A DNA stretch of 41,511 nucleotides from an uncultured Clostridia bacterium (GTDB taxonomy: Bacteria > Bacillota > Clostridia > Oscillospirales > Ruminococcaceae), in the NCBI GenBank assembly GCA_947629785.1, contig CANRFB010000021.1, positions 1 through 41,511 on the forward strand. The letters are read 5' to 3'. Positions within the stretch are counted from its first letter, which is position 1, and each line of letters begins with the position of its first letter. This document shows, one piece after another, positions 2,569-19,158 of the stretch. Under the pieces are notes generated by a model. It searched no databases, was not told the DNA's origin, and worked only from the letters and a program-made list of their open reading frames with translations. Position numbers and translations under genes: made by a program.

Positions 2569-3927
2569 GTGAATACAGTCAATTATAATAAAGCTGCTTT
2601 TAAAAATCTATGCGGCGAGTTTGTAAAAAATAACACAATTCCGCAGCAGCTGTATGAAAAATATCAGGTAAAACGCGGGCTGCGCAACAGCGACGGCAGC
2701 GGCGTTGTGGCGGGGATCACAAATATCTGCAACGTTCACGGTTATATCGTTAACGAGGGCGAACGTGAACCCGTCGCGGGCGAACTTATCTACAGAGGCT
2801 ACAATATAAACGATATTATAGCAAATACCACCGGAAAAGACCGCTTCGGCTTCGAGGAAACGGTATATCTGCTCCTTTTCGGAAATCTTCCTACCGAGCA
2901 GAGCCTGAAAAATTTCAACGAGATGCTTTCCGGATTCAGGGAACTGCCCGCGGGATTTTCCGAGGATATGATATTTAAAGCCCCCTCAAGGAATATAATG
3001 AATAAAATGGCGCGTTCCGTGCTGGCACTGTATTCCTATGAGGAAGACCCCGAGGACCAGAGCCTTGAAAAGGAACTTCTCCGCGCAGTGGCGATAATCG
3101 CAAGACTTCCGTCCGCAATGGTGGATTCTTACCAGATAAAGCGCAGGGTATTCGACCACGAAACACTGTATCTTCACCCGCTGAACCCTGACGAATGTAC
3201 CGCGGAAAGTATACTTTCCACGTTGAGACACGACAGGGTCTACACAAGGGAAGAAGCCAAGCTCCTTGACCTTATGCTTATAATCCACGCGGAACACGGC
3301 GGCGGAAATAACTCCACTTTCACCTGCCGCACACTGACTTCTTCGGGAACGGACGCCTATTCCGCCTATGCGGGGGCTATCGGTTCGCTGAAAGGACACC
3401 GCCACGGCGGCGCGAATTTCAAGGTAATGCGTCAGCTGGACGAGTTCAAGGAAAATATTTCCGACTGGGGAAACGACAGCGAAGTCAAGGACTACCTTGC
3501 AAAGGTCATAAAAGGCGAAGCAGGCGACGGAACGGGACTTGTTTACGGCATGGGACACGCTATTTATACGCTTTCCGACCCGAGAGCGGTGATTTTAAAG
3601 GAAAATGCCATGAAGCTTGCCAAGGGTACGGAGTTTGAAAAGGAATTCATGCTTCTTGATGCGGTTGAACGCCTTACGCCTGAAGTTTTCGCGGAGGTAA
3701 AGGGAAGTTCAAAGGTCATGTGCGCAAACGTAGACCTGTATTCGGGGCTTGTTTACAAAATGCTGAAAATTCCCGTGGAGCTGAATACTCCCATGTTTGC
3801 GGTATCGCGTATAGCGGGCTGGTCAGCACACCGCATTGAGGAACTGCTTAACGGAAAGCGTATAATCAGACCCGCGTACAAGGCTATTTCACAAAGGCGT
3901 AAATATATCCCTCTTGAAGAGAGATAA
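2569..3927 (+). CDS. gltA: Citrate synthase
   Basis: Condenses acetyl-CoA and oxaloacetate to citrate, feeding 2-oxoglutarate for glutamate synthesis in an anaerobe with a partial TCA cycle. Family signatures are present in order: HAEHGGGNNSTF, KGHRHGGAN (catalytic His of the RHGG type), GMGHAIYTLSDPRA (second catalytic His) and NVDLYSG (catalytic Asp), ending in RPAYKAISQRRKYI. I chose the GTG at 2569 because AAAGGAGG lies 7 nt upstream and the protein then has 452 residues, a normal length. The in-frame ATG at 2395 would add 58 residues unlike any citrate synthase and would overlap the promoter. The next gene begins 34 bases after the stop and may be cotranscribed. Whether it is Si- or Re-type is not in doubt, because Re-citrate synthases belong to another family. 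Confidence 0.95.
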   Translation: MNTVNYNKAAFKNLCGEFVKNNTIPQQLYEKYQVKRGLRNSDGSGVVAGITNICNVHGYIVNEGEREPVAGELIYRGYNINDIIANTTGKDRFGFEETVYLLLFGNLPTEQSLKNFNEMLSGFRELPAGFSEDMIFKAPSRNIMNKMARSVLALYSYEEDPEDQSLEKELLRAVAIIARLPSAMVDSYQIKRRVFDHETLYLHPLNPDECTAESILSTLRHDRVYTREEAKLLDLMLIIHAEHGGGNNSTFTCRTLTSSGTDAYSAYAGAIGSLKGHRHGGANFKVMRQLDEFKENISDWGNDSEVKDYLAKVIKGEAGDGTGLVYGMGHAIYTLSDPRAVILKENAMKLAKGTEFEKEFMLLDAVERLTPEVFAEVKGSSKVMCANVDLYSGLVYKMLKIPVELNTPMFAVSRIAGWSAHRIEELLNGKRIIRPAYKAISQRRKYIPLEER

Positions 3928-3961
3928 TATTACATATATTTATTTAGAAGGGGATACGGAC

Positions 3962-5047
3962 ATGAGCAAAGCAAATGTTAAACCTTATGAGCAAAAAAGG
4001 GTATTGTTTGACAAGAAACTGTCGGTGCCTGCTTATCTGTTGGTGCTTGTCATTGCTGTTATCGCAAGAACGGTGCAGTTACAGACAAACATGGATTTCG
4101 GTTCGGGAAAATATATAGACAGTTCGCTTGCAAAGAATTACGGATTCTGGGCGTTGGCGATAGGATTTATCTTTATTTTTCTTGTTCTGTTCCTTGGGCA
4201 GTCAAGGGATAAGATAGTCAACAAGAAAACGGACGACCAAAAAGACATAGAAAGTTCATGTGTTCTGATGAATCCTATGCGTCTGGATGCGGAGCGGCTG
4301 AATAAGAAAATTTCCCCCAAAGCCGGAGCGTTTATGTTTATTATGGCGTTCCTGACGGTATTTGACATATTCCTTGAACTTTCATCTGTGGTAAGCAGAA
4401 ACGATGAACTTTCCACAGAGGCTGTTCCGGTGTCGGCATTTGCGGGAGTTTCGGTGCTTGACTGGATAATTTACGTCTGCGCCGTTATCACGGTAATAAC
4501 ATTCATTTCGCTGGGTGCAAACATTCTTAAAGGCGACGGCTTCACAAGAGGAAACTGCGTGTTCCTGTCAGTATTTGCGATATGGAAGCTTTTGCAGATA
4601 TTCTCAATGATAAATAAGGGCGAAATTATCGGCGCATATTCCGAAAAGATATACATTATGCTTACGGATATGGCTTCGGCGGCGTTCTTCATTTATGCGG
4701 CTAAGTTCTTCGGCGGATTTGAAAAGAAACATACGCGGTTCTGGCTTATCATGTTCGGATATATGGCTTCGATACTTGCGGCTGTATCAACACTTCCGAG
4801 GTACATTATATACTTTACAAAGAGCTATGAGGAAAGATACGGAATGTCAACGCCGTCTACTTCCGAAGTGGGTATAATATTTATAACCGTGGTCATAACG
4901 GCGGTATTCTGGAGCAGTTATGAATACAGAGTTATGCCTAAGCTTGAAATTGCCGGAAAGCGCCGTTGGAGAGGCATCACCTCCACTACCGATGAAATGG
5001 AATCCATAGACGAGGAAGCAGGTTCCACAGGCGGCGATAATAATTAA
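3962..5047 (+). CDS. Polytopic membrane protein of unknown function
   Basis: I do not recognise this family. The 361-residue protein shows about eight hydrophobic segments (near residues 22-38, 61-79, 121-140, 165-187, 198-216, 230-250, 259-284 and 302-318). It has a charged loop between segments 2 and 3 and an acidic, Ser/Thr/Gly-rich tail ending in DNN. No catalytic or transport motif stands out. The ATG at 3962 is preceded by GAAGGGGA at good spacing; an in-frame upstream ATG at 3914 overlaps the citrate synthase gene and lacks a binding site. It lies 34 bases downstream of citrate synthase on the same strand and is followed by a hairpin with a T-run, so it probably ends that transcript. 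Confidence 0.75.
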   Translation: MSKANVKPYEQKRVLFDKKLSVPAYLLVLVIAVIARTVQLQTNMDFGSGKYIDSSLAKNYGFWALAIGFIFIFLVLFLGQSRDKIVNKKTDDQKDIESSCVLMNPMRLDAERLNKKISPKAGAFMFIMAFLTVFDIFLELSSVVSRNDELSTEAVPVSAFAGVSVLDWIIYVCAVITVITFISLGANILKGDGFTRGNCVFLSVFAIWKLLQIFSMINKGEIIGAYSEKIYIMLTDMASAAFFIYAAKFFGGFEKKHTRFWLIMFGYMASILAAVSTLPRYIIYFTKSYEERYGMSTPSTSEVGIIFITVVITAVFWSSYEYRVMPKLEIAGKRRWRGITSTTDEMESIDEEAGSTGGDNN

Positions 5048-5051
5048 GATC

Positions 5052-5115
5052 AGGCGCACTGCGGACGTTTAACGGCGGGTATATTCCGCTGTGCGTTCTG
5101 CCGTGCGCCTTTTTT
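5052..5115 (+). terminator. Terminator or attenuator before the lipoprotein gene
   Basis: AGGCGCAC (5052-5059) pairs with GTGCGCCT (5103-5110), followed directly by TTTTT. The 43-nt loop has internal complementarity. The T-run ends immediately before the ribosome binding site of the next gene, so this could end the upstream transcript or attenuate the downstream operon. Confidence 0.65.
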
Positions 5116-5131
5116 GAAAGGAGCGGTAAAT

Positions 5132-6448
5132 CTGGGAAAAATCACAAAAAATATACTTCCCGTATTAATGACGCTCTGTTTTACTGCGTGTTCATTCGGA
5201 AGTCCGGTGGATACGCTTCTTTCGCCGCCCAAGCTTTCGGAGGAACAGCGGGACGTTTACAATGCGCTTGTGAGTTCGGCGGGGAACGACATAAAACTTC
5301 AATATCCGAGAGCGGGCGAATACCGTTCCGCTTTTGTATTTGCGGATATTGACGGCGAACCTGACAGCGAAGCCATAGTTTTTTACGAAAAATCAGGGGA
5401 AACGGCGGGAACGGGAAACGTCCGCATAAACATTATTGACCGCTTTCCCGACGGAACGTGGCACAGCGTTTACGACCATGCAGGCATGGGAACGGGCATT
5501 GAAAGGGTCATATTCTCGGATATAGGGAATTCGGGAACGGTCAGCATGATGATAGGCTATGAACTGCTTTCGGGAGAAAAGCAGGCGGCGGTCTACAGCT
5601 ATCGTGACGGAATACTCTACAGCGATTTCAACGACAGCTATAATACAATGTTCGTTACAGACATAAACAGGGACGATTCGGACGAACTTGTCCTTATCAG
5701 AACGGAAACACAGCTTCGGAACGCGTCACTCAGCCTTATTTCAAGGAATGCAGACAGCGGCGAGGTTTCGGAGTCGGGAAATGTGGCGCTTGACAAGAAT
5801 GCTTCTGAATTTGTCAATATTGCTTCGGGGTATATCGGTTCGGGAACGCCCGCTATTTTCATAGACGGTCTGAACGACAGACAGATTACTACCGAAATAA
5901 TCTATTACCTTAACGATTCTTTGAGGAATCCTCTGTATCTGGGCGAATCTTCCATGATAGAAAACACCCGCCGCCCCGCGGGTTATCTCTGCACCGACAT
6001 TGACCTTGACGGAATTATCGAAATTCCCACGCGGTCGCTTTTCCCGGGATATTCGGAGGAATCCTCGGAAAAAGTCTACTGCACGGATTGGAACGTTCTG
6101 GAAAATTATAGCGTTACAAAGAAATATTCAAGCTATTACAGCAGAAGCGACGGCTATTGCTTTATTATGCCAAGCAGATGGTCGGGAGTAGTCACTGCGA
6201 AAACGGACAACGCCACGGGAGAATTGGTTTTCTACAAATACAAGATAGATATTCTGAACAGCACTACGGAACTTATGCGTATAGCCGCGGTAAGCCCCGC
6301 GGAAACACAATCCCTGCTTGAAGAGGGATATATAACCATAAAAAGCGGGAATAACATGAATTATCTTGTAAAATGCCCCGATATCGAGGACGAACCGCTT
6401 ATTTTGACAGGAACGGAAATAAGCAATAATTTCTATATTATGATATAA
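5132..6448 (+). CDS. Lipoprotein with VCBS/FG-GAP-like acidic repeats
   Basis: A secreted, lipid-anchored protein of about 438 residues. The N-terminus has a short positive stretch, a hydrophobic core and the lipobox FTAC, after which the mature protein begins. At least three segments resemble calcium-binding FG-GAP/VCBS beta-propeller blades: VFADIDGEPDSEAIVF, FVTDINRDDSDELVLI and LCTDIDLDGIIEI. The start is uncertain. AAAGGAG at 5117-5123 fits best with a CTG at 5132, which gives a textbook lipoprotein signal. A TTG at 5114 lies inside the terminator T-run, and the ATG at 5168 would cut off the charged region. It lies 24 bases upstream of a response regulator gene and may be an extracytoplasmic input or target of that two-component system; this is inference from position. 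Confidence 0.75.
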   Translation: MGKITKNILPVLMTLCFTACSFGSPVDTLLSPPKLSEEQRDVYNALVSSAGNDIKLQYPRAGEYRSAFVFADIDGEPDSEAIVFYEKSGETAGTGNVRINIIDRFPDGTWHSVYDHAGMGTGIERVIFSDIGNSGTVSMMIGYELLSGEKQAAVYSYRDGILYSDFNDSYNTMFVTDINRDDSDELVLIRTETQLRNASLSLISRNADSGEVSESGNVALDKNASEFVNIASGYIGSGTPAIFIDGLNDRQITTEIIYYLNDSLRNPLYLGESSMIENTRRPAGYLCTDIDLDGIIEIPTRSLFPGYSEESSEKVYCTDWNVLENYSVTKKYSSYYSRSDGYCFIMPSRWSGVVTAKTDNATGELVFYKYKIDILNSTTELMRIAAVSPAETQSLLEEGYITIKSGNNMNYLVKCPDIEDEPLILTGTEISNNFYIMI

Positions 6449-9670: not shown

Positions 9671-10312
9671 ATGTCAGAATTTACAAGGCGGCTCCCTGTT
9701 TATCTGCTGCTGGATATTTCCGGCTCAATGGCAGGCGATCCTATAGAAGCTGTAAGAAACGGCGTCCGCGCGCTTATTTCGGAACTGAGAGGCGACCCGC
9801 AGGCGCTGGAAACGGCATATCTTTCGGTAATAACTTTCAATTCGGCGGCAAGACAGGTAGTTCCGCTGACAGAACTTATGATGTTCAGAGAACCGCCGCT
9901 GAACGCAGGCGGCGCGACGGCTTTCGGCGCGGCGTTAAGGCTGCTTACGGAATGTATCCGTGCCGAGGTGCGGAAGTCCACCGAAACGCAGAAAGGCGAC
10001 TGGAAACCGCTGGTTTTCATTCTGACCGACGGCGCGCCTACCGATGAATGGCGTGCTGCGGCTGCCGAACTCAGAAGCACTCACCCTGCAAATATTATCG
10101 CCTGTGCGGCAGGCGCAAATGCAGATACAACGATATTAAGGGAACTTACCGACTGCGTTCTGCTTATGAATAACCTTTCGGCAGGGGATCTGTCGCAGTT
10201 CTTTGCGTGGGTATCAAGTTCGGTAAAGATGTCCTCAAAGAGCCTTGACGCAAAGCCCGGGGCAAATATCGAACTTCCGCCGCCGCCGCAGGGATTTGTT
10301 ATCGTTCCCTGA
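9671..10312 (+). CDS. vWA domain protein, TerY/YegL-like
   Basis: A small soluble von Willebrand factor A protein of 213 residues, nearly all of it the domain. The metal-ion-dependent adhesion site is complete: DISGSM (residues 15-20), the Thr in GGATAFG (about 79) and the Asp in ILTDGAPTDEW (about 118). This single-domain form with a C-terminal Pro-rich tail (ELPPPPQGFVIVP) matches TerY and Escherichia coli YegL. It is followed by a PP2C phosphatase and a kinase with a zinc ribbon, the arrangement known as the TerY-P triad (YegL-YegK-YegI in E. coli), where vWA is thought to act as a metal-dependent scaffold or regulator of the kinase and phosphatase. Ribosome binding site GAAAGGCAGG. Spacing to the phosphatase gene is 17 bases. 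Confidence 0.9.
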   Translation: MSEFTRRLPVYLLLDISGSMAGDPIEAVRNGVRALISELRGDPQALETAYLSVITFNSAARQVVPLTELMMFREPPLNAGGATAFGAALRLLTECIRAEVRKSTETQKGDWKPLVFILTDGAPTDEWRAAAAELRSTHPANIIACAAGANADTTILRELTDCVLLMNNLSAGDLSQFFAWVSSSVKMSSKSLDAKPGANIELPPPPQGFVIVP

Positions 10313-10329
10313 CGTTTACGGAGGCTTTA

Positions 10330-11532
10330 ATGGAAAATAATAATATTCTCACCGACAGAGACGTTACCGAACACACCGCTTCAATGTGGAAATACAACCC
10401 TGTTCCCGATTCCCCCGAACCATACCCGGAGGATATGTGCAGCGAAGTTTCGCAGGGCTGTTTTAAGATAACCGCCGCTTCCGTAAGAGGGAAAAAGCAC
10501 AAGCATGACGGTTCAAACCGTGACGACAGCTTTGCTTTCGGCTTTGTTGACAACGGCGTTATTACCGCAGTTTCGGACGGGGCAGGCTCGAAGATGTTTT
10601 CGAGAATAGGCGCAAAATACGCCTGTGAAGCCGTAGTGAATTATGTAAAAGCGGAGTTCTTTGCGCTGAAAAACCGTTTCCCCGACTATGGGGCGGCTCT
10701 CGGGAAACCCCTTGACAGCAAGGAATTCGGGAAGATATGTTCCGAAATTGCCTTTATCCTGCGGGGAAGCTGCAGCGAGGCTTTCACGGCTGTGGAAGCA
10801 GCTTCTGAAAAGAGAAAGACCTATCACGAATTCATTGAAGCGGCAGGCAGAGAACCCGAGATAAAGGATTTCTCCTGCACGCTCCTTGCCGCGCTGACCA
10901 TTCCCGTGGAAACCGGAAACGGCAGGGAATTCTTCACCGCTGCAATTCAGATAGGCGACGGGATCATTGCCGCCGTTGACGAAAATGCGGCTTTCGGGAA
11001 CGCCCTTGCAGTTTTGGGAACGGCGGACGGCGGGAATTTTTCGGGAGAGACGGAGTTTATCATTTCGGAACATATCCGTTCCGAGGAAAGCCTGATGGCA
11101 AGGACGAAAGTCCGCCGCGGGAAGATGTCGCATTTAATGCTTATGACCGACGGCGTTGCGGACGACTATTACCCCAACGACCCGCAGCTTTTAAGCCTGT
11201 TTATTGACTTGAAACTGAACGGCATAATTCCCTTTGACGGGGAAATTCCCGAAAGCAAGGCGGAAAACATTCCCGAACCCGTGGCTTATCCGTGGGTAAA
11301 CGACAGCGATGTGAAATATGCGCTCCAGTACGCGGAAAATGTTATGGCAGCGGCGGGGATTTCCCTTGAACAGTTCTGGGAAAACAAGACCCTGCAAAAG
11401 CAGGCGTCCCTTGCGGCGTTTGGGATTTCCCATGAAAAGAACAATGCGGAAATGCTGAAAATTTGGCTTGACAACTATGTGAAACGTGGTTCTTTTGACG
11501 ACAGGACGTTATTTTTATTGGCTGTAAAATAA
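10330..11532 (+). CDS. PP2C-family serine/threonine phosphatase of a TerY-P triad
   Basis: Metal-dependent protein phosphatase of 400 residues. PP2C motifs are present: RDD at 64-66; VSDGAGSKMFSRIGAKYACE (81-100) with the metal-binding Asp-Gly; IQIGDGIIAAVD; LMLMTDGVADDYY; and a final DDRTLFLLAV. An insertion of about 70 residues follows the first metal motif, and another of about 70 residues follows the DGVADD motif. All metal ligands appear intact, so it should be active, in contrast to the degenerate membrane protein two genes on. Likely substrate: the kinase encoded next or that kinase's targets. Corresponds to YegK in the E. coli yegLKI arrangement. Start ATG follows TACGGAGG. The kinase gene begins 14 bases after the stop. 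Confidence 0.9.
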   Translation: MENNNILTDRDVTEHTASMWKYNPVPDSPEPYPEDMCSEVSQGCFKITAASVRGKKHKHDGSNRDDSFAFGFVDNGVITAVSDGAGSKMFSRIGAKYACEAVVNYVKAEFFALKNRFPDYGAALGKPLDSKEFGKICSEIAFILRGSCSEAFTAVEAASEKRKTYHEFIEAAGREPEIKDFSCTLLAALTIPVETGNGREFFTAAIQIGDGIIAAVDENAAFGNALAVLGTADGGNFSGETEFIISEHIRSEESLMARTKVRRGKMSHLMLMTDGVADDYYPNDPQLLSLFIDLKLNGIIPFDGEIPESKAENIPEPVAYPWVNDSDVKYALQYAENVMAAAGISLEQFWENKTLQKQASLAAFGISHEKNNAEMLKIWLDNYVKRGSFDDRTLFLLAVK

Positions 11533-11546
11533 TCCGGAGGAATTCT

Positions 11547-13016
11547 ATGAACAGGATAGCCGAGGCAACTCTTGCGGACGGCAGGAAAATACCTTATGTT
11601 ATAACCGATAACCCGCCCCGCGGCGGCATGAAATACACATATTTTGCTCCGGACAGGTCATATGTGGTGCAGTTCTACAACGACCCGTCAAAAGTGGACA
11701 GGAACATGACCGCCCGTCTTGAAGCGATAATCGGCAGGTACAACCCCACAATTCCCGAATCAAAGGGCGGAGCTGTGGGCGGTGACGAAAAACTTGCAAA
11801 ATATTTCGCGGAAAGGTTCTGCTGGCCTACCGACTTGGTGGTAGCTCCTGAGATAGGGATAGTTTCGCCCGCATACCCGAAAAGTTTCTTCTTTGACGAA
11901 CACGCATCAAAATTTCTGGAACTGAAAGGCAAGGACAAGAAAAGCAACTGGTTCACCTCGGGAAACAGGCGGTTTCTGAACAAGTCCGAACTGGGAGATT
12001 TCCGTTCAATGCTGCAAATGTCGCTGCTGCTTTCACGCTCAATAAGGCGTTTGCATCAGGCGGGGCTTGCACATTCCGACCTTTCAAACAACAATGTTCT
12101 CATCGACCCCAGAAGCGGGAACTGCGTTGTTATAGATATTGATTCGCTGGTAGTCCCGGGGCTTTTCCCGCCGGAAGTTGCGGGAACGCGGGGTTATATC
12201 GCGCCCGAAGTTCTTGCCACAATGGAACTTGACAGGAACGACCCGAGGCGGATAGTTCCCGGGTCGATGACCGACCTGCACGCATTGGCGGTGCTTATTT
12301 ACGAATATCTTTTCCTGCGCCACCCACTTATGGGACCGAAAATTTTCTCCGCGGAATCGGCTGAAAAGGACGATTTCCTCGGGCTTGGCGAAATGGCGCT
12401 TTTCATAGAGGACCCGAAAGACAGTTCAAACCGTCCTGTTTCTCTTAAAAATACCATTAAAGACGTTGGTCCCGTTCTGGAAAAGCTGTTCCTGCGGGCA
12501 TTTGCGGAAGGTCTGCACGACCCGCCCCTGCGCCCCTCGGCTATGGAATGGGAACAGGGACTGGTAAAGACTTGGGATATGCTTCATAAATGTTCAAATC
12601 CCGACTGCGAGAAAAAGTGGTTCGTGCTTTATGATTCGGCGAACCCCGTTTGCCCGTTCTGCGGACAGAGGATAGCGGAGAAGAATGTGGTGCGGTTCGA
12701 GCTTTATTCCGAAGTACGGGGACATTCGGGGGAGTGGAAGAAACATTCCGAAATGGATATTGTAAACAACACCCCACTTTTTAAATGGCACACCCATAGC
12801 AATATTTTTGCGGACGAAAAAGCGGACGGCACAATGCAGGCTTATGCTTGCTGCCACAACGGCGAATGGTTCGTGATAAACACCCATGCGGAGGGAATGT
12901 TTTCGCCGCAGGGGAATCCCGTTCCCGAAGGACAGGCTATACGCATTTCGGACGGAACGGTTTTCCGCGCGTCCTCCGACCCACGGGGAATGGTAATAAA
13001 AGTAAGGATAATTTAA
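11547..13016 (+). CDS. Protein kinase-like protein with zinc ribbon, TerY-P triad
   Basis: 489 residues. A kinase fold covers about 20-345: catalytic loop LAHSDLSNNNVLID (HSD at 176-178 in place of HRD, Asn183), the metal Asp in VVIDIDSL (Asp197, DID in place of DFG), and GTRGYIAPEV as the APE motif (219-221). The usual beta-3 lysine is not evident: the matching strand reads YVVQFYND with Gln42. A zinc ribbon follows (Cys349, Cys354, Cys369, Cys372). The last 110 residues are beta-rich with a NGEWFVIN...GQAIRISDGTVF pattern, reminiscent of an FHA domain, which would bind phosphothreonine. This is the YegI-type kinase of the triad. Start ATG follows CCGGAGGAATT. It is followed 21 bases later by the pseudo-P-type ATPase. 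Whether it phosphorylates proteins or is a pseudokinase is open. Confidence 0.85.
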   Translation: MNRIAEATLADGRKIPYVITDNPPRGGMKYTYFAPDRSYVVQFYNDPSKVDRNMTARLEAIIGRYNPTIPESKGGAVGGDEKLAKYFAERFCWPTDLVVAPEIGIVSPAYPKSFFFDEHASKFLELKGKDKKSNWFTSGNRRFLNKSELGDFRSMLQMSLLLSRSIRRLHQAGLAHSDLSNNNVLIDPRSGNCVVIDIDSLVVPGLFPPEVAGTRGYIAPEVLATMELDRNDPRRIVPGSMTDLHALAVLIYEYLFLRHPLMGPKIFSAESAEKDDFLGLGEMALFIEDPKDSSNRPVSLKNTIKDVGPVLEKLFLRAFAEGLHDPPLRPSAMEWEQGLVKTWDMLHKCSNPDCEKKWFVLYDSANPVCPFCGQRIAEKNVVRFELYSEVRGHSGEWKKHSEMDIVNNTPLFKWHTHSNIFADEKADGTMQAYACCHNGEWFVINTHAEGMFSPQGNPVPEGQAIRISDGTVFRASSDPRGMVIKVRII

Positions 13017-13037
13017 GGAATTGGCAGGTGAAATTAA

Positions 13038-15077
13038 ATGGCAGTATCGGAGCTGAACGGCTTGTCGGGGCTTTCCGACAAGGAAGCAGAGGCGGCGGAG
13101 CGGAAGTACGGTGCAAATGCCGTGGCTTTCAAGGGCTCGCTGAGAAGTTCATTTGCAGAGTCTTTTTCGTCGCTGTCGGTGCGGCTGCTGATAATTTCCG
13201 TGCTGTCCGATGTGGTTTCGATACTTCTGGGAATGCTGGGATTCGCCCCCGCTTTCGACGCGTATGAAAGAACGGTCACTGTTTTTGCGGTAATGCTTAT
13301 AATAGGAATTATCGGCGGCGTAATGCGTGAAAATTCCCGAAAAATACTGTGGGAAAGCTTTTCGGTGCTGCCGAAAGGCGAGTGCCGCGCGGTTCGTAAC
13401 AGAAAAATCGCGGTAATTCCCGCCTCGGAAGTTCGTATAGGCGATGTGGTAACCGTTTTTGACGGGGACGTTATCCCCGCGGACGGCGTTGTAATTGACG
13501 GTTTCATAACCGTGGAACAGTCCGCTCTCGGTTCGTCAGTGCCTGTGGAAAAAACTGCCGCTCCCGAGGGTTTCCGTCACGGCGGCATGAATATAAAGGA
13601 CCCCTACAGCGTGTACTGCGGTTCTTCGGCAGTAAAAGGCTTTGCGGCGGTGAAAATAACCGCTGTCGGCGAAAATACCCGACTTGCAAAGAAGTGCGAG
13701 GACGCAGTTCACGAAATTCCCGAAACTGCGTTTTCGGGCATAAAAAAGCTTGCCGCGGTAACGGGAATTATCCTTGCGGCGATAGTTATTACCGTTAATT
13801 CGGTAAACGGCGCAGCGGCGGGAAATTTAGCAGGCGGGCTTTTCGGGGGAATATCCTGCGGCGCGCTGATACTTTCGGCGGTGACCGTGGGCGGGAAAGC
13901 CATCGTCCTGAACGCTTTCGGAGCGGATTCGGTGAAACGCCTGAAAGACGGCGGAACATTCCTGCAAAGCGGCGAATGTCTCGCAGAGGCTTGCGGAACG
14001 GATATTATCATGACCGAAAGAGAGGGCATGATAACGGCAGGGAAATACGTTGTAAGCGGTTTCATTGACGGCAGCGGAAAGGAATACGGGAAGTTCTCCG
14101 AAATAGGCAAAGGACTTGCAAAATTCCTGAAAACAGCCGTGCTTGCGGCGGTGAACGTGGGTGTTTACGGCGGAGAAGCCGTCGGCGGGAATTCCGCCGA
14201 CAGGGCGATATTCGGATTTATCGGCGGCGGGAGCGAGAATATGAAATTGCAGACCGAAGCGGAGGGAAACGGCATTTACGGCGTTACAGTCACTCTCGGA
14301 AACGGTCTTGCAACTGTTATCCGTGGAAGTTCGGACGCCGTTCTGGAACGCTGCGGCGAGTATTTCGGCGCGGACGGCCAAAAATACAGGATAACCAACA
14401 AGGACGCTCTCCGCAAGCTTGCGGAAACCCTCCGCCTGAACGGAAAGGATATTGCCGCATTCGGCTTTTCCGACAAGGGGATAAAGGGCGGGAATGTTCC
14501 GGATTCCGGCTGCGTATTTGTGGGGTTCATGGCTTTGCAGGACGGCTATCCCGAAGATACCGCCGAGTCGGTGAAACGCCTTAAATCCCGCGGAATAAAG
14601 ACCATGGTAGTTACTTCGGGCAGCAGGGAAAATATCCTGTTCACCGTGAAATATGCAGGGATAAAGAAAAGCGGCGGCGTTGTGGTGGACGCGGAGCAGC
14701 TTGGGAAAATGAACGCGGCGCAGCTTTCCGAACAGGTAGAAAAGATAAACGCCGTTGTGGGAGTTTCCGCAAGGGAGAAGCTTCGGCTTGCAAATACCGC
14801 CCGTCACAAAGGGAAAAATCTGCTTTTCGCGGGGAATTTTGCGGAGGACGCGGCTGTTCTTCGGGAATCGGCTGTTTCCATGGCTTCCGCTTCCGCGCCC
14901 GCTTGTGTGAAACAGGTCGGCGGCGCGTTTGCGGAAAATGGCAGTTCGGGCATAGCCTGCGCCGAAAAGCTTATTTCCGAATCGGTCAGATTCAACAGAA
15001 GCTATAAAATATTCTTGATACTGCGGGCGGTGCTGGCGCTTATGCTTTCCGCCGCCGTGATGTTCTTTGGGTGGTGA
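13038..15077 (+). CDS. P-type ATPase-like membrane protein with degraded catalytic motifs (probable pseudoenzyme)
   Basis: 679 residues, colinear with P2-type cation ATPases but apparently unable to form the phosphoenzyme. Seen in order: N-terminal sequence GLSDKEAEAAERKYGANAV, two helices (about 47-68 and 78-96), an actuator domain with IPASEVRIGDVV and FDGDVIPADGV, helices 3 and 4 (about 236-256 and 268-292), a nucleotide/phosphorylation region and one final helix (657-678). Changes: the actuator TGES is LGSS (164-167); helix 4 PEGLP becomes TVGGK; DKTGTLT is EREGMIT (327-333), with Glu for the phosphorylated Asp; the MxTGD motif reads VTSGSR (525-530); TGDGVND reads AGNFAED (598-604). It stops after what would be helix 5, so the cation-binding helices are lost. 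It overlaps the TerD-fusion gene. Probably a membrane scaffold or sensor; frame and codon usage show it is not a decaying pseudogene. Confidence 0.85.
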   Translation: MAVSELNGLSGLSDKEAEAAERKYGANAVAFKGSLRSSFAESFSSLSVRLLIISVLSDVVSILLGMLGFAPAFDAYERTVTVFAVMLIIGIIGGVMRENSRKILWESFSVLPKGECRAVRNRKIAVIPASEVRIGDVVTVFDGDVIPADGVVIDGFITVEQSALGSSVPVEKTAAPEGFRHGGMNIKDPYSVYCGSSAVKGFAAVKITAVGENTRLAKKCEDAVHEIPETAFSGIKKLAAVTGIILAAIVITVNSVNGAAAGNLAGGLFGGISCGALILSAVTVGGKAIVLNAFGADSVKRLKDGGTFLQSGECLAEACGTDIIMTEREGMITAGKYVVSGFIDGSGKEYGKFSEIGKGLAKFLKTAVLAAVNVGVYGGEAVGGNSADRAIFGFIGGGSENMKLQTEAEGNGIYGVTVTLGNGLATVIRGSSDAVLERCGEYFGADGQKYRITNKDALRKLAETLRLNGKDIAAFGFSDKGIKGGNVPDSGCVFVGFMALQDGYPEDTAESVKRLKSRGIKTMVVTSGSRENILFTVKYAGIKKSGGVVVDAEQLGKMNAAQLSEQVEKINAVVGVSAREKLRLANTARHKGKNLLFAGNFAEDAAVLRESAVSMASASAPACVKQVGGAFAENGSSGIACAEKLISESVRFNRSYKIFLILRAVLALMLSAAVMFFGW

Positions 15078-16401
15078 GGATTTGCCGTCGGATATAGGGA
15101 AATTAATTGAAAAAGCCGCGGAGAATTCAGTAATAGAAATTCCCGCGGGGGAGTACGAGGGCGGTTTTGTCATTGACAAAAGCTGTACCATTCGCGGAAA
15201 CGGCTCGGTAATATGGAACGTTTCGGGACCTGCGCTTATAATAAACGCTGAAAATGTTCATATTGAAAATTTAAAGATACTGCTTACGGGGGATAAACTT
15301 CCCCACAGCAAGAATATATCCGTTTACTGTCATTACCCCGACGTGAAATTCTCGGGTGTGGAGGTAAACGGCGCGGTAATAGGTATTCCCGACGAGGAGC
15401 AATACTGGGGAATTCCCTCGGCGCTTTCGCTGGGGACTGTTCCCGCCGAAAAGGAAACGTCCTTTGCATTTGAAGTATATGTTCCCACTGACGCGGACAT
15501 AAACTGCGGAATGTACAGCCTGCGGCTTTCGCAGAATTATCTTTTCCGCGGCTATAACAGCGTTTCTTTTACGGTGGATAAACTGAAAAGCGGCGCGCTT
15601 ATCTACGGGGAAATATTTGTCGTTTCCTCCGTAACGGGAATTATCCGCAAGATAACGGTAAGCGGTTTCGCTGGTGAGGAAATTTCCCCGCCGGATTATA
15701 TGCTTTTCACGGCGGACAGGGAAGCCCCCGAAAAGCACAGCAAGATGATAGAAAATTTCGACCCCCTTGAAGCGGCTTCCACTCCCGAACCCGAACCCGA
15801 AAAGGTGGAAATTCCCCATGAAAACCACATAATTCTTGAAGAAATAAACGAGGCGGAGTTCGGCGGAGACATTCGTGAGGAAAACGTGTTCCTTGTTTCC
15901 GAACAGCGCATACCGCTTCTGCCGAGGAAATACTGCATTGAGATAGGTTATAAAAGCACTCGCGCGAATCTTGACATTGACGGGTATCTTTTCATGCTTG
16001 GGGCAAGCGGGCGCGTGGAAAGCAATTCGGGCATGATATTTTTCGGGAATAACCACTCAAAATGCGGAAGCGTTCAGTATGTAAATTCTCCCGACAGGCG
16101 GGCTATGGTAGTTGACTTGGGAACAATTCCCGAAAACATAAAACGAATGGTAATGTTATTTTCCATATACGGCGACAGTCCCATGCAGACATTTGACAAG
16201 CTTGTGGAGGGCGAGATAAAAATTCTCTGCGAAAACGGAGTCTGTCTGCACCTGACCCTTGAAAAGAATATTCACTGCCGAACAATACTTGCCCTCGGAT
16301 TTGACAGAAATGACGGCGTATGGGAACTTATCCCATCGGGGAAAGGCGTTTCAATGCCCCTTGAGGACATTTGCAGAAGTTACGGCGTTACCATACTGTA
16401 A
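15067..16401 (+). CDS. Beta-helix protein fused to a C-terminal TerD domain
   Basis: 444 residues in three parts. Residues about 10-110 resemble a right-handed parallel beta-helix of the pectate-lyase/CASH type (IEIPAGEYEGGFVIDK, CTIRGNGSVIWNVSG, LIINAENVHIENLKILL). A middle beta-rich region follows, then a Pro/Glu linker (about 238-250). Residues about 282-440 match TerD: IEIGYKSTRANLDIDGYLFML, IFFGNN, VVDLGTIPENIKRMVMLFSIY, FDKLVEGEIKIL and LGFDRNDGVWELIPSGKGV. Asp303 and Asp305 in NLDIDG are in the place of TerD calcium ligands. The start is uncertain: TTG at 15067 overlaps the previous gene by 11 bases, and a second TTG at 15082 has GGTGAGG close by. No signal peptide is seen, so it is likely cytoplasmic or bound to the pseudo-ATPase. 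Confidence 0.85.
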   Translation: MGGEDLPSDIGKLIEKAAENSVIEIPAGEYEGGFVIDKSCTIRGNGSVIWNVSGPALIINAENVHIENLKILLTGDKLPHSKNISVYCHYPDVKFSGVEVNGAVIGIPDEEQYWGIPSALSLGTVPAEKETSFAFEVYVPTDADINCGMYSLRLSQNYLFRGYNSVSFTVDKLKSGALIYGEIFVVSSVTGIIRKITVSGFAGEEISPPDYMLFTADREAPEKHSKMIENFDPLEAASTPEPEPEKVEIPHENHIILEEINEAEFGGDIREENVFLVSEQRIPLLPRKYCIEIGYKSTRANLDIDGYLFMLGASGRVESNSGMIFFGNNHSKCGSVQYVNSPDRRAMVVDLGTIPENIKRMVMLFSIYGDSPMQTFDKLVEGEIKILCENGVCLHLTLEKNIHCRTILALGFDRNDGVWELIPSGKGVSMPLEDICRSYGVTIL

Positions 16402-17887: not shown

Positions 17888-18487
17888 ATGATGACTATTC
17901 TTTATGAAGTGGGAAATAAGCTTTATATCAATCTTACAAACCGCTGTCCCTGCAACTGCACTTTCTGCATAAGGCAGAACGGCGACGGCGCATACGGTTC
18001 GGACAGCCTGTGGCTCGACCGCGAACCCGCCGCGGACGAAGTTATTTCCGCAATTGAAAATACCGATATGTCAAAGTATGCGGAAGTGGTTTTCTGCGGC
18101 TACGGCGAGCCTATGGAACGTCCCGACGATGTGGCGTATATAGGACGTTTCATAAAGGACAATTATAAAATTCCCGTAAGACTGAATACCAACGGTCTGG
18201 GGGATAAGATAAACGAACGCCCCACCGCGGAACTTCTTGACGGCGCGGTGGATACCGTCTCAATTTCGCTGAATCAGTGCAATTCCGAAAAATACAACGC
18301 AGTGACCCGCCCGAAATGGGAGGACGCTTTCGAGGCTATGATAGCATTTGCCGCGGACTGTAAGAAATATGTTCCGAAAGTAATGTTCACGGTGGTGGAC
18401 GTTATCCCGCAAGAGGATATAAGCCGCTGCAAAGCCGTGGCTATGTCGCTGGGTATAGAATTAAGGGTGAGGAAATATGACGGATAA
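17888..18487 (+). CDS. Radical SAM protein, TatD-linked family
   Basis: 199 residues. The iron-sulfur motif CPCNCTFC (Cys20, Cys24, Cys27, spacing CX3CX2C) is followed by the glycine-rich SAM-binding stretch EVVFCGYGEP and by RLNTNGLGD. This resembles the small radical SAM family often encoded with TatD nucleases; TatD itself is not here. The reaction is unknown. Of several close start codons (17879, 17885, 17888, 17891), the ATG at 17888 has the best distance to AAGAAAGGG. The 3' end overlaps the mntA-like gene by 11 bases, so translation is probably coupled. It stands immediately after the dispersed repeat, which must carry or lie downstream of its promoter; none was recognised. Confidence 0.82.
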   Translation: MMTILYEVGNKLYINLTNRCPCNCTFCIRQNGDGAYGSDSLWLDREPAADEVISAIENTDMSKYAEVVFCGYGEPMERPDDVAYIGRFIKDNYKIPVRLNTNGLGDKINERPTAELLDGAVDTVSISLNQCNSEKYNAVTRPKWEDAFEAMIAFAADCKKYVPKVMFTVVDVIPQEDISRCKAVAMSLGIELRVRKYDG

Positions 18488-18776
18488 AAAATATGATATT
18501 CCGCCGAAAGCCGCCGAGGATATTTCACTTTATGCGGAAAAATACGGCGTAAATAAAGTGATACTTTTCGGCTCGCGGGCAAGAGGTACTAACCGTGAAA
18601 GAAGCGATATTGATATTGCAGTCACGGGCGGGAATTTCAGAGAATTTTCCTATGCTATGGACGAATATGCAAGGACGCTCCTGAATTTTGATGTAGTAGA
18701 TCTGGACGGAGGAGTTTCGGAAGAACTTTTGTCCGAAATAAAAAAGGACGGTGTGGTGATATATGAAAAAGTATGA
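18477..18776 (+). CDS. mntA: MntA-like minimal nucleotidyltransferase (antitoxin of HEPN/MNT pair)
   Basis: 99 residues. The nucleotidyltransferase signature FGSRARGTNRERSDIDIAV has Gly32-Ser33, ten residues, then Asp44-x-Asp46, the exact GSX10DXD pattern. A third acidic residue is likely in NFDVVDLD. Characterised MntA antitoxins use ATP to add AMP units to a tyrosine in the HepT toxin, blocking its RNase activity. The gene overlaps the radical SAM gene upstream by 11 bases and the HEPN gene downstream by 14, the usual compact toxin-antitoxin layout. Start ATG follows GGTGAGGAAAT. Confidence 0.9.
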   Translation: MTDKKYDIPPKAAEDISLYAEKYGVNKVILFGSRARGTNRERSDIDIAVTGGNFREFSYAMDEYARTLLNFDVVDLDGGVSEELLSEIKKDGVVIYEKV

Positions 18777-19158
18777 TAATTTCTGCAAGTCCCTTGAAAA
18801 TCTTAAAGAATGCAAGGAAATACAAGAGCCTTATTCTAACGTTGAACTTATGGGCATAACAGGTCTGTTTTCTTTGTGTTTTGAAATGTCATGGAAACTT
18901 ATAAAGGAACTTCTTGAATATCACGGATATTTTACACAAAAGACAGGCTCTCCGAGAATGATATTAAAAACCGCTTTTGAATGGGGAATGATAAGCAGCG
19001 AGGAATTGTGGATGGAAATTCTCGATACAAGAAATTTGCTTTCTCACGTATATGACGAGGAAAAAGCCGAAAGTTCCATAGAAAGAATAAAAACGGACTT
19101 TATTCCCGCTTTTGAGGAATTGAAACGGGAAATAGACGATAAATGGCTGAACGGCTGA
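18763..19158 (+). CDS. hepT: HepT-like HEPN protein (HI0074 type), probable RNase toxin
   Basis: 131 residues, all-helical. The motif DTRNLLSHVYDEE contains Arg90, His95 and Tyr97, the RX4HXY arrangement in which Arg and His form the RNase site and Tyr is the residue modified by MntA. The sequence LFSLCFEMSWKLIKELLEYHG is typical of HI0074-type members, once annotated as substrate-binding subunits of nucleotidyltransferases. It overlaps mntA by 14 bases. Together they form a type VII toxin-antitoxin pair. Toxicity is inferred from the motif; some HI0074-like proteins may have other roles. Confidence 0.88.
   Translation: MKKYDNFCKSLENLKECKEIQEPYSNVELMGITGLFSLCFEMSWKLIKELLEYHGYFTQKTGSPRMILKTAFEWGMISSEELWMEILDTRNLLSHVYDEEKAESSIERIKTDFIPAFEELKREIDDKWLNG

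Follow-up and report, generated by a model that had tools for sequence, protein, structure and literature searches.

On balance we favour the reading that five adjacent genes of an uncultured Clostridia bacterium form one unit encoding a reduced Ter-type stress-signalling complex, in which a P-type pump that lacks its catalytic residues would be kept as a non-transporting membrane partner. The genes lie in a contig stretch of 41,511 nucleotides, the whole of which is here called the window; the source genome comprises 3.05 Mb in 162 contigs. A preliminary description of this DNA had claimed a five-gene cassette, and all five genes were found where it had placed them and in the order it had given (Table 1). 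The successive intergenic gaps, from the vWA gene to the gene of the TerD protein, are 17, 14, 21 and -11 bases, and the last reading frame starts with TTG.

Table 1. Genes of the unit in the window and their main Pfam matches with E-values, all of which exceed Pfam's cut-off.
Feature	Coordinates	Strand	Pfam match
vWA protein (TerY/YegL-like), intact MIDAS	9671..10312	+	PF00092, 3e-13
PP2C-type protein phosphatase, motifs kept	10330..11532	+	PF13672 (PP2C_2), 1e-32
Ser/Thr kinase; zinc ribbon and a further domain without Pfam family at the C-terminus	11547..13016	+	PF00069 (Pkinase), 1.5e-9
Pseudo P-type pump (P2, Ca2+-ATPase-like); M1-M5 and the domains A, P and N present, catalytic and ion-site motifs absent	13038..15077	+	PF00122 (E1-E2_ATPase), 9e-18
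Three-domain protein: short beta-helix, PapD/ASH-like domain, TerD without acidic calcium loop	15067..16401	+	PF02342 (TerD), 1e-18

The available text of PMC11090510 describes the TerY-P triad as a vWA protein, a PP2C phosphatase and a Ser/Thr kinase with a zinc ribbon, and judged by sequence the first three genes of the window fit this definition. The vWA protein has the MIDAS, the PP2C protein has the metal-site motifs, and the Ser/Thr kinase is fused to a C-terminal zinc ribbon (C.NP.C...CPFC) and carries the motifs HSDLSNNN and DID. The earlier identification of these genes as a TerY-P triad is thus borne out by Pfam domains, by active-site motifs and by homology to E. coli YegL, PphC and YegI, whose genes sit together in E. 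coli K-12. The vWA protein is homologous to YegL (38% identity over 128 aa) and the phosphatase is related to PphC, also called YegK (28% over 171 aa). The kinase matched YegI over 258 aa at 24% identity in BLAST (E 1.6e-5) and with a family profile (E 1.2e-9), both E-values referring to a set of three sequences; a phmmer search with the window kinase alone gave no YegI match. The E. coli yegL-pphC-yegI set and the window unit share the three genes, their order, the motifs and the zinc ribbon, but the E. coli stretch that we fetched holds no pump or TerD gene, and the window unit adds these two. The kinase tail (12650-13016), about 100 residues after the zinc ribbon, has no Pfam family and is kept in loci with intact pumps too. 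An FHA-like identity for the kinase C-terminus was considered and dropped, as the likeness was by eye only and Pfam gave weak matches of zinc-ribbon type.

The fourth protein is confidently predicted to fold like a P2-type Ca2+-ATPase, with the full P-type fold. The A, P and N domains and helices M1-M4 are all recognizable in the predicted model and through PF00122. The protein has no helices M6-M10, and the motifs of the phospho-aspartate, the hinge, the nucleotide site and the ion site have gone too; the position of DKTGT reads EREG. Of what marks a functional P-type ATPase, the protein has neither the DKTGT aspartate nor GDGxND, KGAPE, TGD or [TN]GE, nor the M4-M6 ion site, nor the full helix set. 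Compared with the P2-type Ca2+-ATPases LMCA1, SPCA1a and SERCA, it lacks the catalytic aspartate, the hinge, KGAPE and PEGLP, and it has five helices instead of ten. The catalytic residues are missing in alignment to intact relatives, in agreement with the preliminary description, which had called the protein a catalytically dead pump.

Relatives of the unit were collected with a kinase-profile scan of species genomes, which gave 120 loci, and the best 80 of these were analysed. Pumps longer than 600 aa were measured in 63 loci, the window included, the count omitting 18 of the best 80 loci in which the pump was cut or missing; 40 pumps had both DKTGT and GDGxND and 23 had neither. The dead pumps were 675-715 aa long (n = 23) and the intact ones 717-940 aa (n = 40), the 717-aa frame being truncated by the end of its contig. 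PEGLP was present in 40/40 intact pumps and in 0/23 dead ones. Among the dead pumps, the complete DKTGT motif was found in 0/23, with the aspartate alone at its site and the rest of the motif gone in two (G002, G124); GDGxND and the M6 NxxxD site occurred in 0/23 each, a KGAPE-type and a TGD-type motif in 1/23 each, and [TN]GE in 2/23. In the actuator TGE motif, the intact Ter-linked pumps of L100, L104, L110, L119 and L144 have N for T. Hydropathy placed one helix after the head in a group of 17 dead pumps, which includes that of the window, and two in a group of 6, so that two truncation states exist, of 5 and 6 helices. It is conceivable that the pump still works in an unorthodox manner, its catalytic residues having shifted elsewhere or the protein forming a channel, and the kept predicted fold and the relatively conserved N and A domains would agree with this. 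We consider this very improbable, because DKTGT, GDGxND, PEGLP and the M6 NxxxD site are missing in all 23 and only one helix follows the head in the group of the window.

Nearly all of the 40 intact pumps occupy the same gene position as the dead ones. The dead pump thus derives from an intact Ca-type pump, which relatives have at this position. A TerD fusion gene directly follows the dead pump in 23/23 loci. The triad of these loci is well preserved: the vWA genes keep the MIDAS motif DxSxS in 21/21 (window included), and the kinases keep HSDLS.NN in 23/23, DID in 20/23 and the zinc ribbon in 21/23. In the loci with intact pumps, the vWA genes have DxSxS in 37/38 and the D pattern in 27/38; the T pattern was unmatched in 17/38, so that the MIDAS of the intact set was checked in part.

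All five gene types occurred in the same order in 56 of the best 80 (of 120) relatives. Among these 80, a vWA gene lay upstream of the kinase in 71 and a PP2C gene in 77, a P-type ATPase lay downstream in 68 (some cut by contig ends), and 64 had a TerD gene, one of them a cut frame on the other strand. Where at least 3.5 kb beyond the kinase could be seen, 61/70 loci had the pump, so the kinase-pump association is more than chance. The pump of L139 is placed about 3.6 kb farther away, behind TerD genes. The triad also occurs without a pump and is thus not strictly dependent on it: L101, L109 and L113 have the triad without pump or TerD gene in the fetched stretch, and L157 has triad and fusion and no pump. 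L135, L137, L140 and L141 have PP2C and kinase only, with no vWA gene detected.

The closest named relative among the best 80 of 120 is the uncultured Clostridia bacterium MAG isolate Lapin-023, whose kinase is 98% identical; we read the isolate name as pointing to rabbit gut. In a class-level search of 391 genomes, the kinase was found solely in the genome of the window at E 1e-60, and an order-level search found it in 7/394 genomes at 1e-20, two of these being partial matches. Two oddities were seen among the relatives. In L123, a very diverged dead-pump locus, PP2C is spread over two ORFs and the TerD ORF has 323 aa, which may reflect genuine decay or a fault in the MAG. The Ruminococcus UBA946 cluster carries, between PP2C and kinase, a gene of glycoside hydrolase family 44 (L100:2050-3798).

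Of the 85 gaps within the unit that could be measured in 22 dead-pump loci, 69 were 30 bases or less, overlaps counted. The flanking genes of the window recurred rarely in these loci, several of which lie on contigs too short to show flanks: the downstream MBL gene in 5/22, RlmH in 2/22, and the upstream DUF1385 gene in 0/22. That the unit is kept together while its flanks differ argues for five genes as one unit, as had been proposed from the window alone. A consensus scan gave 14 promoter-like sites (mean of 7.4 in shuffles) and 12 terminator-like sites (13.7 in shuffles); one promoter-like site spans the vWA-PP2C gap (10315-10344), and the kinase-pump gap has none.

We then consider whether the pump and TerD genes merely adjoin the triad and work separately. 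To follow the two genes independently of the kinase, 148 genomes of the family of the window were searched with the pump, and frames shorter than 800 aa among the matches listed were inspected. Four dead homologues were present among these matches (G000, G092, G002, G124), all within the five-gene unit; of the other short frames, seven had intact motifs and were cut, split or shorter, and the one in G103 was a fragment. Alongside these, two full-length pumps were fetched, both of them intact. TerD was matched in 20/148 genomes, and on our reading 17 of these 20 had a whole or partial P-type ATPase gene no more than about 6 kb from a TerD gene of the same contig; in the remaining three the genes were on separate contigs or were not fetched. 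Homologues of the long fusion also stand alone, away from the triad, in G136 (after pheT), G096 and G118; others lie within TerD clusters, in G111 and in G094, the latter with vWA and PP2C genes and no kinase seen. The preliminary description had named as its refutation that the last two genes be found mostly away from the triad; the dead pump stays with the triad among the matches listed, and the fusion is found elsewhere too. These solitary fusions and the loci without a pump speak for a separate function. Against it stand the order kept in so many of the best 80 loci amid differing flanks, the short gaps and overlaps, and the kinase-pump adjacency that intact clusters also have, and we regard separate function as improbable. 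The solitary fusion gene of G136 (L067, contig C13) lies immediately 3' of pheS/pheT.

The dead pumps appear to be under selection. In pairs that were hand-picked from trees and are overlapping and non-independent, the dN/dS of the pump was 0.09-0.22 in dead pairs (12 pairs) versus 0.02-0.08 in intact pairs (9 pairs), the kinase giving 0.02-0.08 in both sets, and the ratio of pump dN to kinase dN was 1.3-20 in dead pairs and 0.5-1.9 in intact pairs. In the dead pairs L083/L084 and L093/L095 the pump dS was also about twice the kinase dS, and recombination may therefore contribute to the contrast. A neutral simulation put about 10 stops into the pump gene at 0.25 substitutions per site and about 24 at 1.0, and all 23 dead pumps are open, in a comparison for which frames longer than 600 aa had been selected and the omitted dead-clade loci L086, L106 and L111 end at contig ends. 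Because of its dN/dS, the dead pump does not look like a decaying pseudogene and would seem to be kept by selection; the open frames, set against the simulated stops, likewise disfavour a pseudogene.

A slower loss has to be weighed as well: the lineage would be losing its Ter cluster, the dead pump would be a decaying leftover, and both pump and fusion would disappear in time. Constraint is indeed relaxed relative to the intact pumps, the two truncation states exist, related loci lack pump and TerD, and other Ter genes are already gone. Nonetheless, a dN/dS not near 1, frames open over their whole 675-715 aa where about 24 stops would be expected at 1 substitution per site, and a full fold predicted with confidence make slow decay unlikely.

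The conserved parts of the pump differ between the two states, again in hand-picked, overlapping and non-independent pairs. Among 10 intact pairs, identity was 95-100% in the segment of the phosphorylation site, 89-100% in M5-M6 and 54-94% in the N domain; among 9 dead pairs it was 35-100% in M5 and 43-91% in M3-M4, both of which were lowest or close to lowest in most pairs, and 60-97% in the N domain. The N domain equalled or exceeded M5 in 7/9 dead pairs, and M5-M6 equalled or exceeded the N domain in 10/10 intact pairs; N was above the P1 segment in 5/9 dead pairs only. As to the origin of the dead state, a quick kinase tree put both dead groups on a branch shared with L100, which has an intact pump, and with pump-less loci. 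A careful kinase tree of 33 rows did not resolve how the dead groups branch relative to the intact rows, an AU test did not reject one clade of all dead rows (p-AU 0.162), and the pump tree joins long branches.

The fifth protein had been described as a fusion of a beta-helix and TerD. The TerD fold is present, and so is a NosD-type beta-helix stretch at residues 12-107 (E 9e-9; 34 bits, the family cut-off being 300 bits), but the protein has three domains, and a PapD/ASH-like domain at about residues 106-206, between the other two, had been overlooked. The structure model of the protein has a pLDDT of 88.7 and a pTM of 0.56. The acidic loop of TerD, GDN[LR]TGxGDGDDE, has a calcium role. This loop, whose GDNxTG is seen in the TerD structures 3ibz and 2kxt, is absent from the window protein, and we therefore rejected the calcium-binding TerD that had been proposed for it. 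The loop was found in 0/56 TerD genes longer than 300 aa versus 72/82 shorter ones, most single-domain TerDs of related clusters thus having it. The fifth protein provides the sole TerD of the genome, where the lyase PF15617 had no match, so that the TerD paralogues of a full Ter system and the lyase of its lyase/PRTase module are lacking; TelA is present on another contig. In four dead-pump genomes there is one TerD each and no lyase.

Larger Ter clusters accompany the intact pumps. Beside the pumps of L104, L110 and L148 we found AIM24, several TerD genes, a C-C bond lyase, PRTase/TRSP, YceG and TelA, not all in each, which we take to be the known Ter-cluster set. The order vWA-PP2C-kinase-pump with an intact pump is seen, for example, in L100, L104 and L110. 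In L110, from Anaerobacterium chartisolvens, the order is that of the window, with TerD genes ending in a long TerD fusion, but this cluster has a full-length catalytic pump, several short TerDs, AIM24 and lyase/PRTase genes, all of which the window unit lacks. The loci can be put in a putative series by gene content, which is not a dated order: full cluster with live pump, live pump with a single fusion (L100), dead pump with fusion, and triad or PP2C and kinase alone. Given the Ter genes beside intact pumps, the window unit looks like the reduced end of this series and reads as a stripped derivative of the larger clostridial Ter cluster, with the live pump, the calcium TerDs and the lyase module gone and the triad retained beside a pseudo-pump in the membrane.

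The favoured reading would then run as follows. Under stress, the kinase/phosphatase pair of the ancestral cluster, with its vWA partner, may have adjusted a Ca2+ pump and TerDs that bind calcium. The lineage of the window would have lost ion transport and calcium binding, and the pseudo-pump would have been retained as a membrane anchor and a likely phosphorylation substrate. It might keep the kinase, the phosphatase and the TerD scaffold membrane-bound, and its N and A heads would be the conserved contact surface. The loss of residues is read from the sequence itself and the partner role is our inference; the dead membrane platform that the preliminary description had seen in the pump is a plausible hypothesis. 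The rapid change of the dead pump relative to the kinase and the loci that have the triad and no pump count against this reading. Tentatively, we also entertain that a Ca2+ pump has turned into a signalling pseudoenzyme, which would neither bind ATP nor move ions and would serve as the membrane receptor or scaffold of the kinase-phosphatase-vWA switch, live and dead pumps standing at one gene position in related species.

The unit could instead serve in phage defence or conflict by way of the TerY-P switch, the fast-changing membrane protein being the sensor or the point at which phage counter-measures aim. The available text of PMC11090510 reports CoCoNuT and defence systems that contain TerY-P and TerY-P-like modules; in addition, the pump changes quickly and the neighbourhoods of the unit differ. 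However, PADLOC gave no match for four of the five proteins and weak matches for the kinase (best E 5e-6), the unit contains no nuclease or toxin gene, and two pattern scans, within the reach of their patterns, found no relative in viral contigs. We give this alternative a small chance.

To our knowledge, no link is known between the TerY-P triad and KdpB, a bacterial P-type ATPase subunit. KdpB is inhibited by serine phosphorylation according to the accessible part of PMC9651954, which makes it a precedent for a P-type ATPase as a serine phosphorylation target, but KdpB is a subunit of an active pump, unlike the pseudo-pump. Going by the portions available, PMC12363816 reports a Ca2+ P-type ATPase and TerD genes in Jug phages, each by itself and not as one cluster, and PMC6262375 reports that TerD synthesis rises in C. 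difficile under metronidazole.

The TerY-P triad is known (PMC11090510, available text), and what appears to be new here is the dead-pump five-gene unit in some gut bacteria. We found no description of the triad with P-type ATPase and TerD, or of the dead-pump unit, among the open-licence papers listed, and none of a P-type ATPase pseudoenzyme among the literature matches listed (top 15 of 170 and 12 of 39). The live-pump cluster may already be in print in the 2012 Ter survey of Anantharaman et al. The literature available to us does not settle the target of the TerY-P switch. A single gene position occupied by a live pump in certain species and by a dead pump still under selection in others would offer a natural comparison that separates a transport role from a signalling role, and the dead pump would also be a P-type ATPase pseudoenzyme.

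Two other regions of the window were noted. Between a citrate synthase and a response regulator (3914-6448) lie genes for proteins of 377 and 444 aa that have no Pfam match at E 0.001. At 18477-19158, a Pol-beta type nucleotidyltransferase gene is followed by an ORF of 131 aa, a layout that we take to be that of an MNT/HEPN-type toxin-antitoxin pair.
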